This document shows, piece by piece, positions 4,975-56,038 of a stretch of 64,000 nt of DNA. The stretch comes from Gloeobacter kilaueensis JS1. GTDB lineage: Bacteria > Cyanobacteriota > Cyanobacteriia > Gloeobacterales > Gloeobacteraceae. A program made the translations under genes and the position numbers. The stretch spans positions 744,001 through 808,000 of the forward strand of contig NC_022600.1 of the NCBI RefSeq assembly GCF_000484535.1, written 5' to 3'. The notes below the pieces were generated by a model that did not search any database, was not told where the DNA came from, and was given only the letters and a program-made list of their open reading frames with translations. Position 1 is the first letter of the stretch. Each line of letters starts with the position of its first letter.

Positions 4975-5777
4975 ATCCGGCTGTATTGCGGGGACTGAGC
5001 CGGACGAACCTGGAGGCTCTGGCCGCTGCCCTCGAATCGGGTCGGATAGTACCGCCTTACTCCCGCCTTGGGCTGCAGGCGCTGGTAGGCGCTCTTCAGG
5101 CAGAACCTGCGGCAGCAGAGATGGCGCACCTGGCAGCCCAGGGAATGCAACCCATTCACATCGCTTATCTGCTGCGCGCTTTGGTTGCCGAACGGGCGGA
5201 CGCCCAGCAACTGCGCGATCAGATAGAAATTGTCTGGACTGGAGACGATTTGCTGGCAATCACGGGCCGCGATACCGCCGTAGTCGTGCGGGAACTCTTT
5301 GCGGCGGCCCGTAAAAGTGTCTTGATCGCCAGTTACGCCCTCGATCGGGGCGAAAAAGCAATGGCACTGTTTGGCGAACTGGCAGCCAGGCTGGACAATG
5401 AGCCGGGCTTTACCGTGCGCGTGTGCCTCAATATTCATCGTCCTACTCAAAGTAACCAGAGCGAAGCGCAACTGGTAGAAGCGTTTGGGAAACTTTTTCG
5501 CGAAGAGATCTGGCCGGGCTCGAAGCTGCCGCAGGTATTCTACGATCCGCGTGCCCTGCAAAAAGGCGGAAACGAACGTGCCTGTCTCCATGCCAAGTGC
5601 GTGGTCATCGATCAGCAAAAAGCCCTGGTCACTTCCGCCAACTTTACCGAGGCGGCCCACAAAAGAAATATCGAAGTGGGTGCGCTCCTGAGCGATCAGG
5701 CCACCGCCAGTGCGCTGTGGCAGCAGTTTGCGTTGCTGATTCAAAAAAGGAACCTGCTGGCGCTGTATCCGGTGTGA
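4971..5777 (+). CDS. drmC: DISARM phospholipase D-like protein DrmC
   Basis: Protein of 268 residues with one PLD-superfamily HKD motif: HAKCVVID followed by TSANFTEAAHKRN, in the last third of the chain. The single motif implies dimerisation for activity, as in other one-motif PLD nucleases. The start ATGA overlaps the drmB stop, so drmA-drmB-drmC form one coupled operon. In DISARM, DrmC is a core gene whose contribution is smaller or phage-dependent compared with drmA and drmB (family knowledge). The next gene is convergent 6 bp away, so the operon ends here and any methyltransferase or drmD/drmE would have to be upstream, outside the window. Confidence 0.88.
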   Translation: MNPAVLRGLSRTNLEALAAALESGRIVPPYSRLGLQALVGALQAEPAAAEMAHLAAQGMQPIHIAYLLRALVAERADAQQLRDQIEIVWTGDDLLAITGRDTAVVVRELFAAARKSVLIASYALDRGEKAMALFGELAARLDNEPGFTVRVCLNIHRPTQSNQSEAQLVEAFGKLFREEIWPGSKLPQVFYDPRALQKGGNERACLHAKCVVIDQQKALVTSANFTEAAHKRNIEVGALLSDQATASALWQQFALLIQKRNLLALYPV

Positions 5778-24605: not shown

Positions 24606-26747
24606 ATGATCGAGTACAGAAAGTCTGTCACAGTCCATGGACGCGAGATCGGGTTAAGTACAGGCGTCCTGGCACAGCTGGCAGGCGGATCGGTATTGGT
24701 GCAGTCGGGAGAGACTGCCGTTTTAGTAACTGCGACGATGGCCCGCCAACCGCGCGAGGGAATCGACTTTTTTCCTTTGCTGGTTGACTACGAGGAGCGC
24801 CTCTACGCCGCCGGTCGCATTCCCGGTAGTTTTGTCCGCCGCGAAGGCCGCCCGCCCGAAAAGGCAATCCTGGCAGCCCGCCTCATCGACCGCCCGCTGC
24901 GGCCACTGTTTCCCAAAGGTTTTATCAACGACGTGCAGATCGTGGCGACTGTTCTCGCCCTCGATATGAACGTTCCGCCGGACATTCTGGCGATTCTCGG
25001 AGCCTCCAGCGCGACGATGCTCGCGGGAATTCCCTTCGATGGGCCGGTAGCAGCGACCCGCGTCGGCCTTATCGGCGACGATTTCATCATCAATCCCACC
25101 TACAAGGAGATCGAAGACGGGGATCTCGATCTGGTGGTGGCCGGCACCAAAAACGGAATCATGATGGTCGAGGCGGGAGCGAACGGCCTTTCCGAAGAAG
25201 ACATCCTCGATGCGATCGACTTTGGCTACGAGGCGGTGCAGGCGATGCTCACCGCCCAGGAAGAGTTCATCAAAGAACTAAAAGTCGAACCGCTCGCATT
25301 TACGCCCCCCGCCAACGACCCGGTGCTCGTCTCCTTCGTCGAGCAGAAGGTAGCTGACCCGGTGGCAGAAATTCTCCACAGTTTTGATCTGAGCAAAGAC
25401 GAGCGCGACAAACGGCTCGATGGGATCGAGGCAGAGCTGAAAGCAACTTTTGAGACCCTGGGCGAGGACGATCCACTCCGCGAGAAGCTGGCGGCCAATC
25501 CCAACAAACTCGGGGCGCTTTTTAAGTCAGCCACCAAAAAACTGATGCGCAGGCAGATCCTCGACGAGGGCAAGCGCGTCGATGGCCGCGCCTTGGGCGA
25601 GGTGCGCCCGGTAAGTAGTGCCGTGCGCGTCATCCCGCGCGTCCACGGCTGCGGACTGTTTACGCGGGGGACGACCCAGGTGCTCTCGGTGGTCACTTTG
25701 GGCACCGGCTCCGACGCTCAAGAACTCGACGACCTGCACCCGGACGAGTCCAAGCGCTACATGCACCACTACAACTTTCCCGGCTTCTCGGTGGGCGAGG
25801 TCAAGCCCCTGCGCGGGGTGGGTCGGCGCGAGGTAGGCCACGGAGCCCTGGCGGAGCGGGCGATCGTGCCGGTGCTGCCGGAGTACGAAGCTTTCCCCTA
25901 CGTGATCCGCGTCGTCTCCGAGGTGCTCTCCTCCAACGGCTCGACCTCGATGGGTTCGGTCTGCGGCTCGACTCTAGCGCTGATGGACGCGGGGGTGCCC
26001 CTGCGCGAACCGGTCTCCGGGGTGGCGATGGGACTTATCAAAGAAGGCGACGAGGTGCGCATCCTCACCGACATCCAGGGCATCGAAGATTTTCTGGGCG
26101 ACATGGACTTCAAGGTGGCCGGTACCCGCGACGGGATCACAGCCCTGCAGATGGACATCAAGATCCAGGGGATTACCCTTTCCATCATGGAATCGGCGCT
26201 GCAGCAGGCCAAAGCCGGGCGGCTGCATATTCTTGAGAAGATGCTCATCGCCATCGACAAGCCCAGAGCGGAGCTGTCGCCCTACGCTCCGAGACTGCTG
26301 ACCCTCAAGATTCCGGTCGATATGATTGGCCTGGTCATTGGTCCCGGCGGCAAGACGATCAAACGGATCGTAGAAGAGACCGGCGCAAAGGTCGATATCG
26401 AGGACGACGGCACGGTGATCGTCTCCTCGGTAGATGGAGCCAAAGCCCTCGCCGCCCGCCAGATCATCGAAGGGATGACCCGCACCGTCGAGGTGGACAA
26501 AGTCTACCTGGGCACCGTTACCCGGATCATTCCCAACCTCGGTGCCTTCGTCGAGGTTCTACCCGGCAAAGAAGGGCTGGTGCATATTTCGCAGCTGGCC
26601 GAGCACCGGGTGCGCAAGGTCGAGGACGAACTGAACGTCGGCGACGAAGTGGTGGTCAAAGTCAAGGACATCGACCAGAAAGGCCGGATCAACCTCACCC
26701 GCCGGGGTATCCACCCGAGCGAGGTGGAGGCAGCGCGGGGCCAGTAG
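24606..26747 (+). CDS. pnp: Polyribonucleotide nucleotidyltransferase (PNPase)
   Basis: 3'-5' phosphorolytic exoribonuclease, full length at 713 residues. Two RNase PH domains (about 1-215 and 320-545) flank an alpha-helical linker. [15 protein letters not shown] marks the second, and the catalytic acidic segment [16 protein letters not shown] is near 495. A KH domain ([22 protein letters not shown], about 575) and an S1 domain ([29 protein letters not shown], about 640) close the chain. Its last 53 bp overlap the end of the convergent gene. Confidence 0.97.
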
Positions 26748-27267
26748 CCGGGTGGTGTTCTAACAGGCCATCCGGCCCCATCTGGCGCACGGTGCGCCCG
26801 GCTCGCCGCCGGGTCCTTGCGGCCATCGGAACGATGCCGGTGCGCCGCTGGGCCTCCCCGAGCGTGAGGGGCAACACCGCCTCGATGCTGTAGACCCCCG
26901 GCTGGCCGGTGACGATCTTTGTCGGGCAGTGCAGGTGGCGGTCGTAGCCCCGCAGCATACTGAGCAGCATCTCCCGGCGCGGCATTCGATCAAAATCGGC
27001 GTCGAGGCGGCAGATCACAGCAAAACCGACGATGGCCGCGAGCCTCGGGATCCCGAGGCTCGCGGCCTCCGCGCCGCCCACGTAGGCTTCGCCCAGAGGC
27101 GTGTTGGGCGCTTCCATCAAAATATGGGTGACATCGTGGCGCTCGATATGAAAGCGAATCGCCCAATCGACCGGCGCGACGCCGGTGAGGGGAATGGCGT
27201 TATCTGGCCTGTCGAAGCCATGCTCGGCAAAACGTCGCCGCAACAGTTCGCCAACCGTCAGATTCAT
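26695..27267 (-). CDS. Hypothetical protein overlapping the pnp 3' end
   Basis: Protein of 190 residues, unknown family. The first 140 residues look like a folded protein ([35 protein letters not shown]). The last 45 are Arg/Pro/Gly-rich and partly antisense to pnp, so the natural stop may have been lost by a small frameshift. No motif is recognised. The strand is opposite to pnp, and the stop lies inside it. Confidence 0.5.
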
Positions 27268-53433: not shown

Positions 53434-53856
53434 TCACTTCAACTTGAACCGCTCCGGTAGAGCAACTTCGAGCCACGGATAAACCGAAGGAGCGCCCAGA
53501 AAATACCACAGCGCCAGGACCGCATCGCAGATCGCACAGCCGAAGGAGGACTCCGGCACAAAAGGCACGATCGGGTTGCCGTAAAGGTGGTGCATCACAT
53601 CCCAGCCGGTATGTAAAAGCCAGCCCAGGCCGACGAAGCGATAATCACCGAGGCCCCGGTAGGCGACAAAGGTCATGAGGGTGCAGAAGACGAATTCCCA
53701 GACCCCCAGCCCACCGCTCAGGTAGGCAGCCCCCGCCCCGGCGATCAGGATTGCGCTGAAGTTGCGGCGGGCAGGTTCCTGCAGGAGCGAGCAAAGTGCG
53801 ATGAAGATGCCTGCGACGAGCACAGGCGAGAGGAGTTGAACAGGTGTGAAGAGCAT
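53434..53856 (-). CDS. DUF6010-type integral membrane protein
   Basis: Protein of 140 residues with four to five hydrophobic spans. The phrase HTGWDVMHHLYGNPIVPFVP followed by SSFGCAICDAVLALWYFLGAP is the family hallmark. AAGGAAA precedes the ATG. Same strand as the TetR gene, 26 bp downstream of it, so probably its target and in one operon. Confidence 0.78.
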   Translation of the reverse strand: MLFTPVQLLSPVLVAGIFIALCSLLQEPARRNFSAILIAGAGAAYLSGGLGVWEFVFCTLMTFVAYRGLGDYRFVGLGWLLHTGWDVMHHLYGNPIVPFVPESSFGCAICDAVLALWYFLGAPSVYPWLEVALPERFKLK

Positions 53857-53882: not shown

Positions 53883-54482
53883 TCAACTTTGGCGCGAGCG
53901 GTCCAGCAACGCCCCAAAGGCTATCTGCGCCCGCTCGTCGGCGCGGGGATCTTTTAGAAAGCGATAGGAGGCGTGGTGACTTAGATAAATACCGCACAGC
54001 TCCCAGACAAACTGATCGGCGTCGAGATCCGCCCGCAGATGGCCAAGTTCGACCGACCGACGGACCAGTTGCCCCAGAAGAGCGCGCCACCGCGCCTCCA
54101 GTTCGAGCACGCGCGATCGGACGTTGCCTGCGATGTCGTCCAGTTCAAAGAGGGCGGCTGAGATCGGACAGCCCCCCCGCAGCCCTGCCTTCGCGGGCCA
54201 GCCGAACCAGCGGGAGACAAGCGCTTCGAGCCGGGGCAATCCCTCGGCTGCCTGGAGGGCCGGCTGCAGGACGCAGGCATCGGCGATCACGCTCATGTGC
54301 TCCAACAGCGCCAGTTGCACCTCTTCTTTGGAGCGAAAGTGAGCGAACAGGCCGCTTTTGGACATGCCGACCTGCTGGGCCAGCACCCCAAGGGTGACGC
54401 CCGGCAGGCCCGCTTCACTGAGCAGATTAAGCCCGGTTTGCAAGATGCGCTCGCGGGTCTGGGCAGCAGCGGAGGTTGTCAT
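53883..54482 (-). CDS. TetR family transcriptional regulator
   Basis: Protein of 199 residues from ATG 54482 (the open frame continues upstream to 54725 but without a good start). N-terminal HTH TRERILQTGLNLLSEAGLPG and VGMSKSGLFAHFRSKEEVQLALLEH. The ligand domain is C-terminal. It faces fumC divergently, with a perfect 24-bp palindrome between them as likely operator. Confidence 0.88.
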   Translation of the reverse strand: MTTSAAAQTRERILQTGLNLLSEAGLPGVTLGVLAQQVGMSKSGLFAHFRSKEEVQLALLEHMSVIADACVLQPALQAAEGLPRLEALVSRWFGWPAKAGLRGGCPISAALFELDDIAGNVRSRVLELEARWRALLGQLVRRSVELGHLRADLDADQFVWELCGIYLSHHASYRFLKDPRADERAQIAFGALLDRSRQS

Positions 54483-54491
54483 GACCCTCAG

Positions 54492-54515
54492 AATAGCACG
54501 ACCGGTCGTGCTATT
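54492..54515. promoter_or_regulatory. 24-bp perfect palindrome, likely TetR operator
   Basis: AATAGCACGACC followed by its exact inverted copy GGTCGTGCTATT, 9 bp upstream of the tetR ATG. The centre ACGACCGGTCGT is like known TetR-family operators. A simple autorepression site for tetR-DUF6010 is the best reading. fumC starts 114 bp further and may or may not be controlled. Confidence 0.75.
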
Positions 54516-54628
54516 GTCAGGCAACGCCCACCCCGCTCCGGCTCCCAGGAGGCACCCGCGCAGTCTTGCCTGAGCAATCGGCACCGGGAATATGTCAGAT
54601 TGAAACCGCAGAGGCGAGGGGCGAGCAG

Positions 54629-56038
54629 ATGGACTTTTCAGCAAGTAAGCGGATTGAAACCGACAGCATGGGTGCGATCGAGGTACCAGCGGACCGCTAC
54701 TGGGGGGCCCAGACCCAGCGCTCACTGCAGTACTTTTCTATTGGCGACGATCTGATCCCTCGGGAGATGATCCGCGCCTTTGGCCTTCTCAAAAAGGCGG
54801 CTGCCCTCGTCAACCAGCAGCTGGGACAATTGAGCGAAAAAAAGGCGCAGCTTATCGTCCAGGCGGCGGACGAGGTGATCGCAGGCCGCCTCGACGACCA
54901 CTTTCCGCTGCGGGTCTGGCAGACCGGCAGCGGCACCCAGACGAACATGAACGTCAACGAGGTGATCGCGAACCGGGCAATCGCGCTGGCCGGCGGCGTA
55001 TTGGGAAGCAAAGATCCGATCCACCCGAACGACGATGTCAACTGCTCCCAGTCCTCCAACGACACGTTTCCGACGGCGATGCACATCGCGGCTGTCGAGC
55101 AGTTGCACTACCGGTTGCTGCCAGAAGTAGGCCGCCTGCGCGAGGCGCTCGCTCAAAAGGCCGACGCTTTCGAGGCGATCATCAAAGTAGGGCGAACCCA
55201 CCTGATGGACGCAGTGCCCCTTACGCTGGGCCAGGAGTTCTCCGGCTACGTCGCCCAGATCGATCAGGCCCTCGAGCGCCTGCGCGCCTGCCTGCCTGCC
55301 CTGTTGGAGCTGGCTCTGGGCGGAACGGCGGTCGGTACTGGCCTTAACAGCCACCCGCGCTTCGCCGTCGCGGTGGCCCAACAGATCGCCGATTTAACTG
55401 GTCTGTCCTTTATCAGCGCTCCTAACAAGTTTGCCGCCCTCGCGGCCCACGAGCCGATCGTGGCCACGAGCGGAATGCTGCGGACTCTGGCTGTTGCTCT
55501 CATCAAGATCGCCAACGACCTGCGCTGGCTCGGTTCCGGTCCCCGCTGCGGACTGGCGGAGCTGATCTTGCCGGCAAATGAGCCGGGCTCCTCGATCATG
55601 CCGGGCAAGGTCAATCCGACCCAGTGCGAGGCGATGACGATGGCCTGCGTGCAGGTGCTGGGCAACGACGCTGCGATCGCCATCGCCGGCTCCCAGGGCA
55701 ACTTCGAGTTGAACGTCTTCAAGCCCCTGCTCATCCACAATCTGCTCCACTCGATCCGGCTTATCGCCTCGGCCAGCGCGAGCTTTACCGACTATCTGGT
55801 GGTGGGGCTGGAGCCGAACCACGCCCAGATCCAGCACTACCTCGACAACGCCTTGATGCTGGTCACCGCCCTCAACCCCCACATCGGCTACGACCGGGCG
55901 GCAGCGGTGGCCAAAAAAGCCTACAGCGAGCGCAAGACCCTGCGCGAAGCCTGTCTGGAACTGGGGTTTTTAACGGCAGAAGAATTTGATCGCTGGGTGC
56001 GCCCCGAACGGATGCTTGGGCCAGCGGCAGAGCCTTAA
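54629..56038 (+). CDS. fumC: Fumarate hydratase class II
   Basis: Protein of 469 residues from ATG 54629, the start that gives the FumC N-terminus [20 protein letters not shown]. Signature [19 protein letters not shown] (catalytic Ser loop) near residue 322, and [19 protein letters not shown] near 190. Converts fumarate to malate in the TCA cycle. Homotetramer. Confidence 0.95.

Follow-up and report, generated by a model that had tools for sequence, protein, structure and literature searches.

A perfect palindrome before a TetR_C_13 regulator gene of Gloeobacter kilaueensis is very probably the autoregulatory operator of tetR and its DUF6010 partner

Introduction

Among the described systems closest to the locus reported here is that of NemR in Escherichia coli, in which the regulator gene is followed by nemA and is shortly preceded by the palindrome TAGACCGACTGGTCTA, which we take to be the NemR operator. 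Another regulator, the product of Listeria fepR, is presumably also of the TetR type. For NemR, Cys106 is described as crucial for the sensing of hypochlorite, and a bond between Cys106 and Lys175 is doubted (PMC8748444). A variant of the operator core described below, ACGAACGGTCGT, stands within a PCR primer for Listeria fepR (PMC9195947). It may be a further case of the same operator. On the plasmid pAt of Agrobacterium fabrum C58, a TetR protein (ATU_RS25300) approximately 53% identical to the one studied here has the site AGAACGACCGTTCGTACTATT before its start codon and small genes of unknown function downstream, although these encode DUF3817 and CopD/UPF0093 proteins instead of DUF6010, and a co-directional SDR gene lies upstream. 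Similar cores and helices are also found, at 40-46% identity, in loci such as L109 and L113, which differ in having a gene for an alpha/beta hydrolase downstream. A literature search on TetR, operator and core sequence together found no paper.

Here, we describe a palindrome of Gloeobacter kilaueensis JS1, located in a 64-kb stretch of DNA that was analysed as a whole (hereafter, the window), between a tetR gene and a divergent fumC gene. The features of the locus are as follows.

53434-53856, minus strand: DUF6010 gene, 140 aa, 26 bp after tetR; product predicted from its model to be all-helical, putatively in the membrane
53883-54482, minus strand: tetR, 199 aa, with TetR_N and TetR_C_13 domains (Pfam), recognition helix at residues 42-49 (AlphaFold2 model) and a conserved cysteine, Cys105; the core lies 15 nt before the start codon
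54490-54495, minus strand: predicted -10 box TATTCT of the tetR promoter, with TGC before it, overlapping an outer arm of the palindrome (promoter score 9.5)
54492-54515, no strand: perfect, self-complementary 24-bp palindrome, read as operator core plus outer arms; consensus TAGCACGACCGGTCGTGCTA over 21 close sites, the window's included
54498-54509, no strand: putative 12-bp operator core ACGACCGGTCGT, present with at most two mismatches upstream of 59 of 80 tetR homologues
54512-54517, plus strand: mirror -10-like box TATTGT towards fumC, with a good -35 box absent (score 4.8, null median 5.0)
54515-54520, minus strand: predicted tetR -35 box CTGACA, at 5 bp from the core and with a 19-nt spacer
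54629-56038, plus strand: fumC, class II fumarate hydratase, divergent neighbour, probably outside the regulatory unit

Compared with NemR, the window TetR has the same Pfam C-terminal family, TetR_C_13, is 29% identical over 126 aa, and its Cys105 aligns with the NemR cysteine counted as 106; in both cases the regulator gene is followed by another gene. However, the downstream gene is here DUF6010 and not a reductase gene, the recognition helix and the operator core are unlike those of NemR, and NemR Lys175 stands opposite Arg174 in a profile alignment counted by hand.

Results

The sequence AATAGCACGACCGGTCGTGCTATT at 54492-54515 is its own reverse complement and is separated by 9 bp from the ATG of tetR (54482, minus strand), which bears out the exact inverted repeat 9 bp from the tetR start described in the original prediction. 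When mismatches are allowed, the repeat grows to two 18-nt arms (54486-54521) with 89% complementarity. Five perfect palindromes of at least 14 bp occur in the window, among which this one ranks second by length. Because the number of palindromes of at least 24 bp expected is approximately 0.007 per 64 kb and approximately 0.5 per genome of 4.72 Mb, the length alone is notable in the window and not in the genome, and the case for a function is made by position and conservation and not by length alone. The longer palindrome of the window, perfect over 34 bp (27034-27067), lies inside an ORF of the minus strand (26695-27267); its central 20 bp occur once in the genome and are absent from four relatives searched with up to two mismatches.

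The regulator belongs to the TetR_C_13 branch, with 36.3 bits for TetR_N (cut-off 24) and 100.5 bits for TetR_C_13 (cut-off 27), and its AlphaFold2 model is all-helical (mean pLDDT 93.2), in which residues 42-49, KSGLFAHF, form a helix of the N-terminal domain where the recognition helix is expected. A genome scan with the single protein gave no match; homologues were found through the peptide KSGL[FY]AHF in a profile scan of genome contigs, from which the best 80 of 548 relatives were kept, and the invariance of the helix among these 80 loci is therefore by construction. The residue at position 105 is Cys in 76 of the 80 homologues, and it is also Cys in the distant paralogues of the helix-operator comparison below, for which reason Cys105 may be structural.

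The 150 bp upstream of the matched stretch, from which distances were measured rather than from a mapped start codon, hold the core ACGACCGGTCGT with at most two mismatches in 59 of the 80 mutually related loci; the corresponding numbers are 58/2767 for control pieces taken from these loci and 9/1600 for shuffles. Exact cores occur in 11/80 loci (1/2767 control pieces and 0/1600 shuffles), cores with at most one mismatch in 34/80 (15/2767 and 1/1600), and cores with at most three in 73/80 (315/2767 and 132/1600). The best sites of the remaining 21 loci have three (14 loci), four (4 loci) or five (3 loci) mismatches, and among the loci with at least 50% identity 17/19 have the core with at most two. 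In L104, L105 and L106 the operator is missing (five mismatches) and Cys105 is replaced (by Ser, Ser and Ala, respectively); the tetR homologue of L106 also carries an in-frame stop.

Among 30 relatives, close tetR orthologues were found in G196 and G198 only. The congener G196 has an orthologue 70% identical with two upstream cores, G198 one 64% identical with a single upstream core, and the core is also present on two Agrobacterium plasmids, with one mismatch in every case. In G196 (L064, orthologue starting at 4983), the two cores stand 39 nt (end of the nearer one) and approximately 105 nt ahead of the start codon. The palindrome thus adjoins the regulator gene and its core is conserved with the orthologues, as befits an autoregulatory operator. 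The original prediction had assigned it to the TetR-DUF6010 pair, and was to be abandoned if orthologous tetR genes had no such conserved site upstream; the site is kept in G196, G198, the two Agrobacterium plasmids and the 59 loci, and this comparison, with DUF6010 as a recurrent partner, supports the assignment.

The arms were compared in sites with at most two mismatches only (four loci of our own and the 59 of the 80), with L140 dropped as it has no upstream sequence. The outer arms are kept in the 21 close sites, 18 of which have an exact TAGC or GCTA on one side or on both (both in four), while in the 41 remoter sites the left arm is weak and the right arm mostly retained. No other of the 21 close sites is as symmetric as that of the window, and in nine of the 21 the perfect palindrome spans 10 bp or less.

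The pairing of helix and operator was followed in 39 fetched tetR-like loci, mostly stronger matches, of which 33 were counted, L015 and L022 being left out for want of a match and L043, L054, L055 and L056 for carrying other helices. With at most one mismatch, ACGANCGNTCGT occurs at 11/15 loci with the helix KSG[LV][FY][AG]HF and at 0/18 with KGG[IL]YN[HY]F, whereas AGACCNNNNGGTCT, which resembles the palindrome before E. coli nemR, occurs with at most two mismatches (at most one) at 18/18 (15/18) of the latter and 2/15 (0/15) of the former. Upstream of the window tetR, the best site of the AGACCNNNNGGTCT type has three mismatches. The exceptions are the KSG-type helices without operator in three related genomes (L037, L038 and L053) and that of L030, with a 3-mismatch site. 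The operator appears to change with the recognition helix, a strong association that is not independent evidence, because the two helix groups also differ in their overall kinship to the query, and this difference may explain part of the covariation.

The sites with at most two mismatches (the same four loci and 59 of the 80, with L140 left out of the -35 count) also share a promoter-like layout. A perfect TTGACA lies within 24 nt before the core in 21/62 sites and in 0/372 control pieces, and five or six matches to it in 37/62 sites against 17/372 control pieces; where present, these boxes mostly stop 3-6 bp short of the core. On the other side of the core, most sites have a -10-like CTATT, and in 37/63 sites the first in-frame start codon comes 14-16 nt past the core, the window value being 15 nt (54482-54497). 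The best tetR-ward promoter match in the window, CTGACA and TATTCT separated by 19 nt, scores 9.5 against a 95% point of 8.1 for 300 random window pieces, and a second candidate scores 6.8. A sigma-70 consensus scan with spacers of 16-18 found no promoter at the palindrome on either strand, the spacer predicted here being 19. Core and arm would fill the spacer of this putative promoter. Transcription would then be expected to begin on or beside the start codon, so that the tetR mRNA is probably leaderless, as are probably the tetR mRNAs of the group of TetR genes with the core 14-16 nt before the start codon.

Concerning the downstream partners, the genes on both sides of tetR in the homologue loci are longest-ORF guesses, of which only those with a Pfam match were relied on. 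DUF6010 follows tetR in 7/19 loci of at least 50% identity and, besides these, in G196, where a DUF6010 gene 74% identical adjoins the tetR orthologue, although the family is rare among relatives (2/30 genomes, the present one included). DUF3817 with UPF0093 is found downstream in 5/19 of the closest loci, and DUF6069 in L090 (above the cut-off) and L091 (below it), while the search assigned no family to the downstream ORFs of L093, L099 and L103. Below 50% identity, the next ORF encodes an alpha/beta hydrolase in 11/12 sampled loci, most of them chosen for an ORF of approximately 300 aa. The predicted model of DUF6010 is all-helical (mean pLDDT 83.6) and had no counterpart among solved structures at E <= 0.001. 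By a crude hydropathy count, DUF6010 homologues have only one or two segments and two DUF6069-like proteins four, and with so few segments DUF6010 is placed in the membrane tentatively. Residues H82, W85, D86, H89 and C107 of DUF6010 are invariant in eight sequences, which suggests that it might bind a metal or cofactor. A literature search for DUF6010, alone or with TetR, found no paper.

On the other side of the palindrome, fumC starts 113 bp away in a divergent arrangement. It was beside tetR in none of the 80 loci (fetched flanks of at most 3 kb, shorter where a contig ended), and in G196 it lies approximately 2 Mb from tetR. Each of the nine genomes compared has one fumC at E <= 1e-100, yet that of the window is only 42-46% identical to those of its eight order-mates. 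Closer matches come from other cyanobacterial families, where identity reaches 76% (47 other genomes of 194 at E <= 1e-120), and from plasmid-borne bacterial genes, where it reaches 67%. On this evidence the gene looks like a xenolog, although an old copy kept here and lost elsewhere is possible, and the divergent arrangement seems lineage-specific. No empty insertion site could be delimited, since the genes that border the region here lie far from each other in both G194 and G196. The fumC-ward promoter match on the palindrome scores 4.8, which does not exceed what random window pieces give (null median 5.0). Neither conserved adjacency nor a good fumC promoter on the palindrome was found; a weak divergent promoter sharing it is possible. 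The gene upstream of tetR runs in the same direction as tetR in G196, G198 and Agrobacterium and, backed by a Pfam match, in L086, L087, L088, L089 and L091, which leaves the operator of those loci without a divergent target. Of the 20 loci looked at, 10 have their longest upstream ORF on the opposite strand, so that a divergent target is possible in some.

The genome, searched as a single contig of 4,724,791 bases, holds no second exact copy of the core, and its sole copy with one mismatch (4677634) sits within a 304-aa ORF; the further copies for which the original prediction proposed a scan thus come to this one near-match, without an exact one. In searches for a regulon, counts were lower than those of reversed-pattern controls for all three patterns, namely the core with one mismatch (2 against 29), the half site ACCGGTCGTGCTATT with three (51 against 97) and ACGAHCGDTCGT with one (45 against 116). 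Three near-matches were looked at individually. Besides 4677634, that at 2381698 is also located within an ORF, and that at 1378994 lies between ORFs but has C in place of the conserved G at core position 3. TetR may have a weak second target elsewhere in the genome.

Discussion

We consider it very probable, at roughly 0.88, that the palindrome is the autoregulatory operator of the adjacent TetR protein of the TetR_C_13 branch, controlling tetR and DUF6010, with fumC as a chance neighbour. It would then be a switch of an ordinary type that recurs in many distant bacteria. The sequences directly show the palindrome and how far it is conserved, the way it pairs with the helix, the constant distances between -35-like box, core and start codon, and the recurrent tetR-DUF6010 pair; from these we infer how the switch would work. 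TetR, as a dimer or a pair of dimers, would bind ACGACCGGTCGT through the helix KSGLFAHF and, with the core occupying the spacer of the predicted tetR promoter and an outer arm overlapping its -10 box, would keep RNA polymerase off, repressing tetR and the downstream DUF6010 gene. Transcription of tetR would start on or beside the start codon, probably giving a leaderless mRNA in this genome. TetR would be freed from the DNA by a ligand, which may be an electrophile or oxidant that acts at Cys105; this class of signal is only a lead, suggested by the likeness to NemR.

We regard it as distinctly unlikely that the palindrome also overlaps a divergent fumC promoter and that TetR and its ligand control fumC as well. 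The divergent layout, with 113 bp from the palindrome to the fumC start, would suit such a shared operator, and the symmetry yields an extended -10-like TGCTATTGT on the fumC side; however, the symmetry breaks at the would-be -35 box (CCTCAGA against CCTGACA), the score of 4.8 is below the null median and nearly equalled (4.7) by a candidate at 54566-54593, the two genes are neighbours in 0/80 loci, and this xenolog-like fumC, the sole one in the genome at E <= 1e-100, stands in a neighbourhood that seems lineage-specific. The suggestion of the original prediction that fumC answers to the same ligand was thus not supported by adjacency, by the descent of the gene or by its promoter match, which is at the random level.

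That the element acts as RNA, as a terminator or regulatory stem-loop in the tetR leader and not as a protein site, is very improbable. A perfect palindrome can fold as a stem once transcribed, but the scan gave no terminator-like site, nine of the 21 close sites have perfect palindromes of 10 bp or less, the site varies with the recognition helix, and the -35-like box and the start-codon spacing place it upstream of transcription. With approximately 0.5 palindromes of at least 24 bp expected in a genome of this size, one could also think of a chance or mobile palindrome without function, a reading to which its position, the lack of a second exact core and above all its conservation in the homologues leave next to no probability.

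Beyond the autoregulatory operator, a broader and rather speculative picture, probably not true as a whole, would be that of a TetR_C_13 module, widespread and moving horizontally, that has a single fixed KSGL[FY]AHF-ACGANCGNTCGT code, a built-in leaderless promoter and possibly a redox- or electrophile-sensing cysteine and has been repeatedly coupled to small, probably membrane proteins (DUF6010, DUF3817-UPF0093 and DUF6069); its symmetric operator would here lend a weak promoter under the same signal to a newly arrived fumC. If this picture were true, DUF6010, DUF3817-UPF0093 and DUF6069 would share one stress-related role. The pairing with tetR gives a guilt-by-association lead to DUF6010, and for uncharacterised TetR proteins of this kind, which form a large group, a useful outcome of this work would be a testable helix-to-operator rule with a fixed promoter layout.
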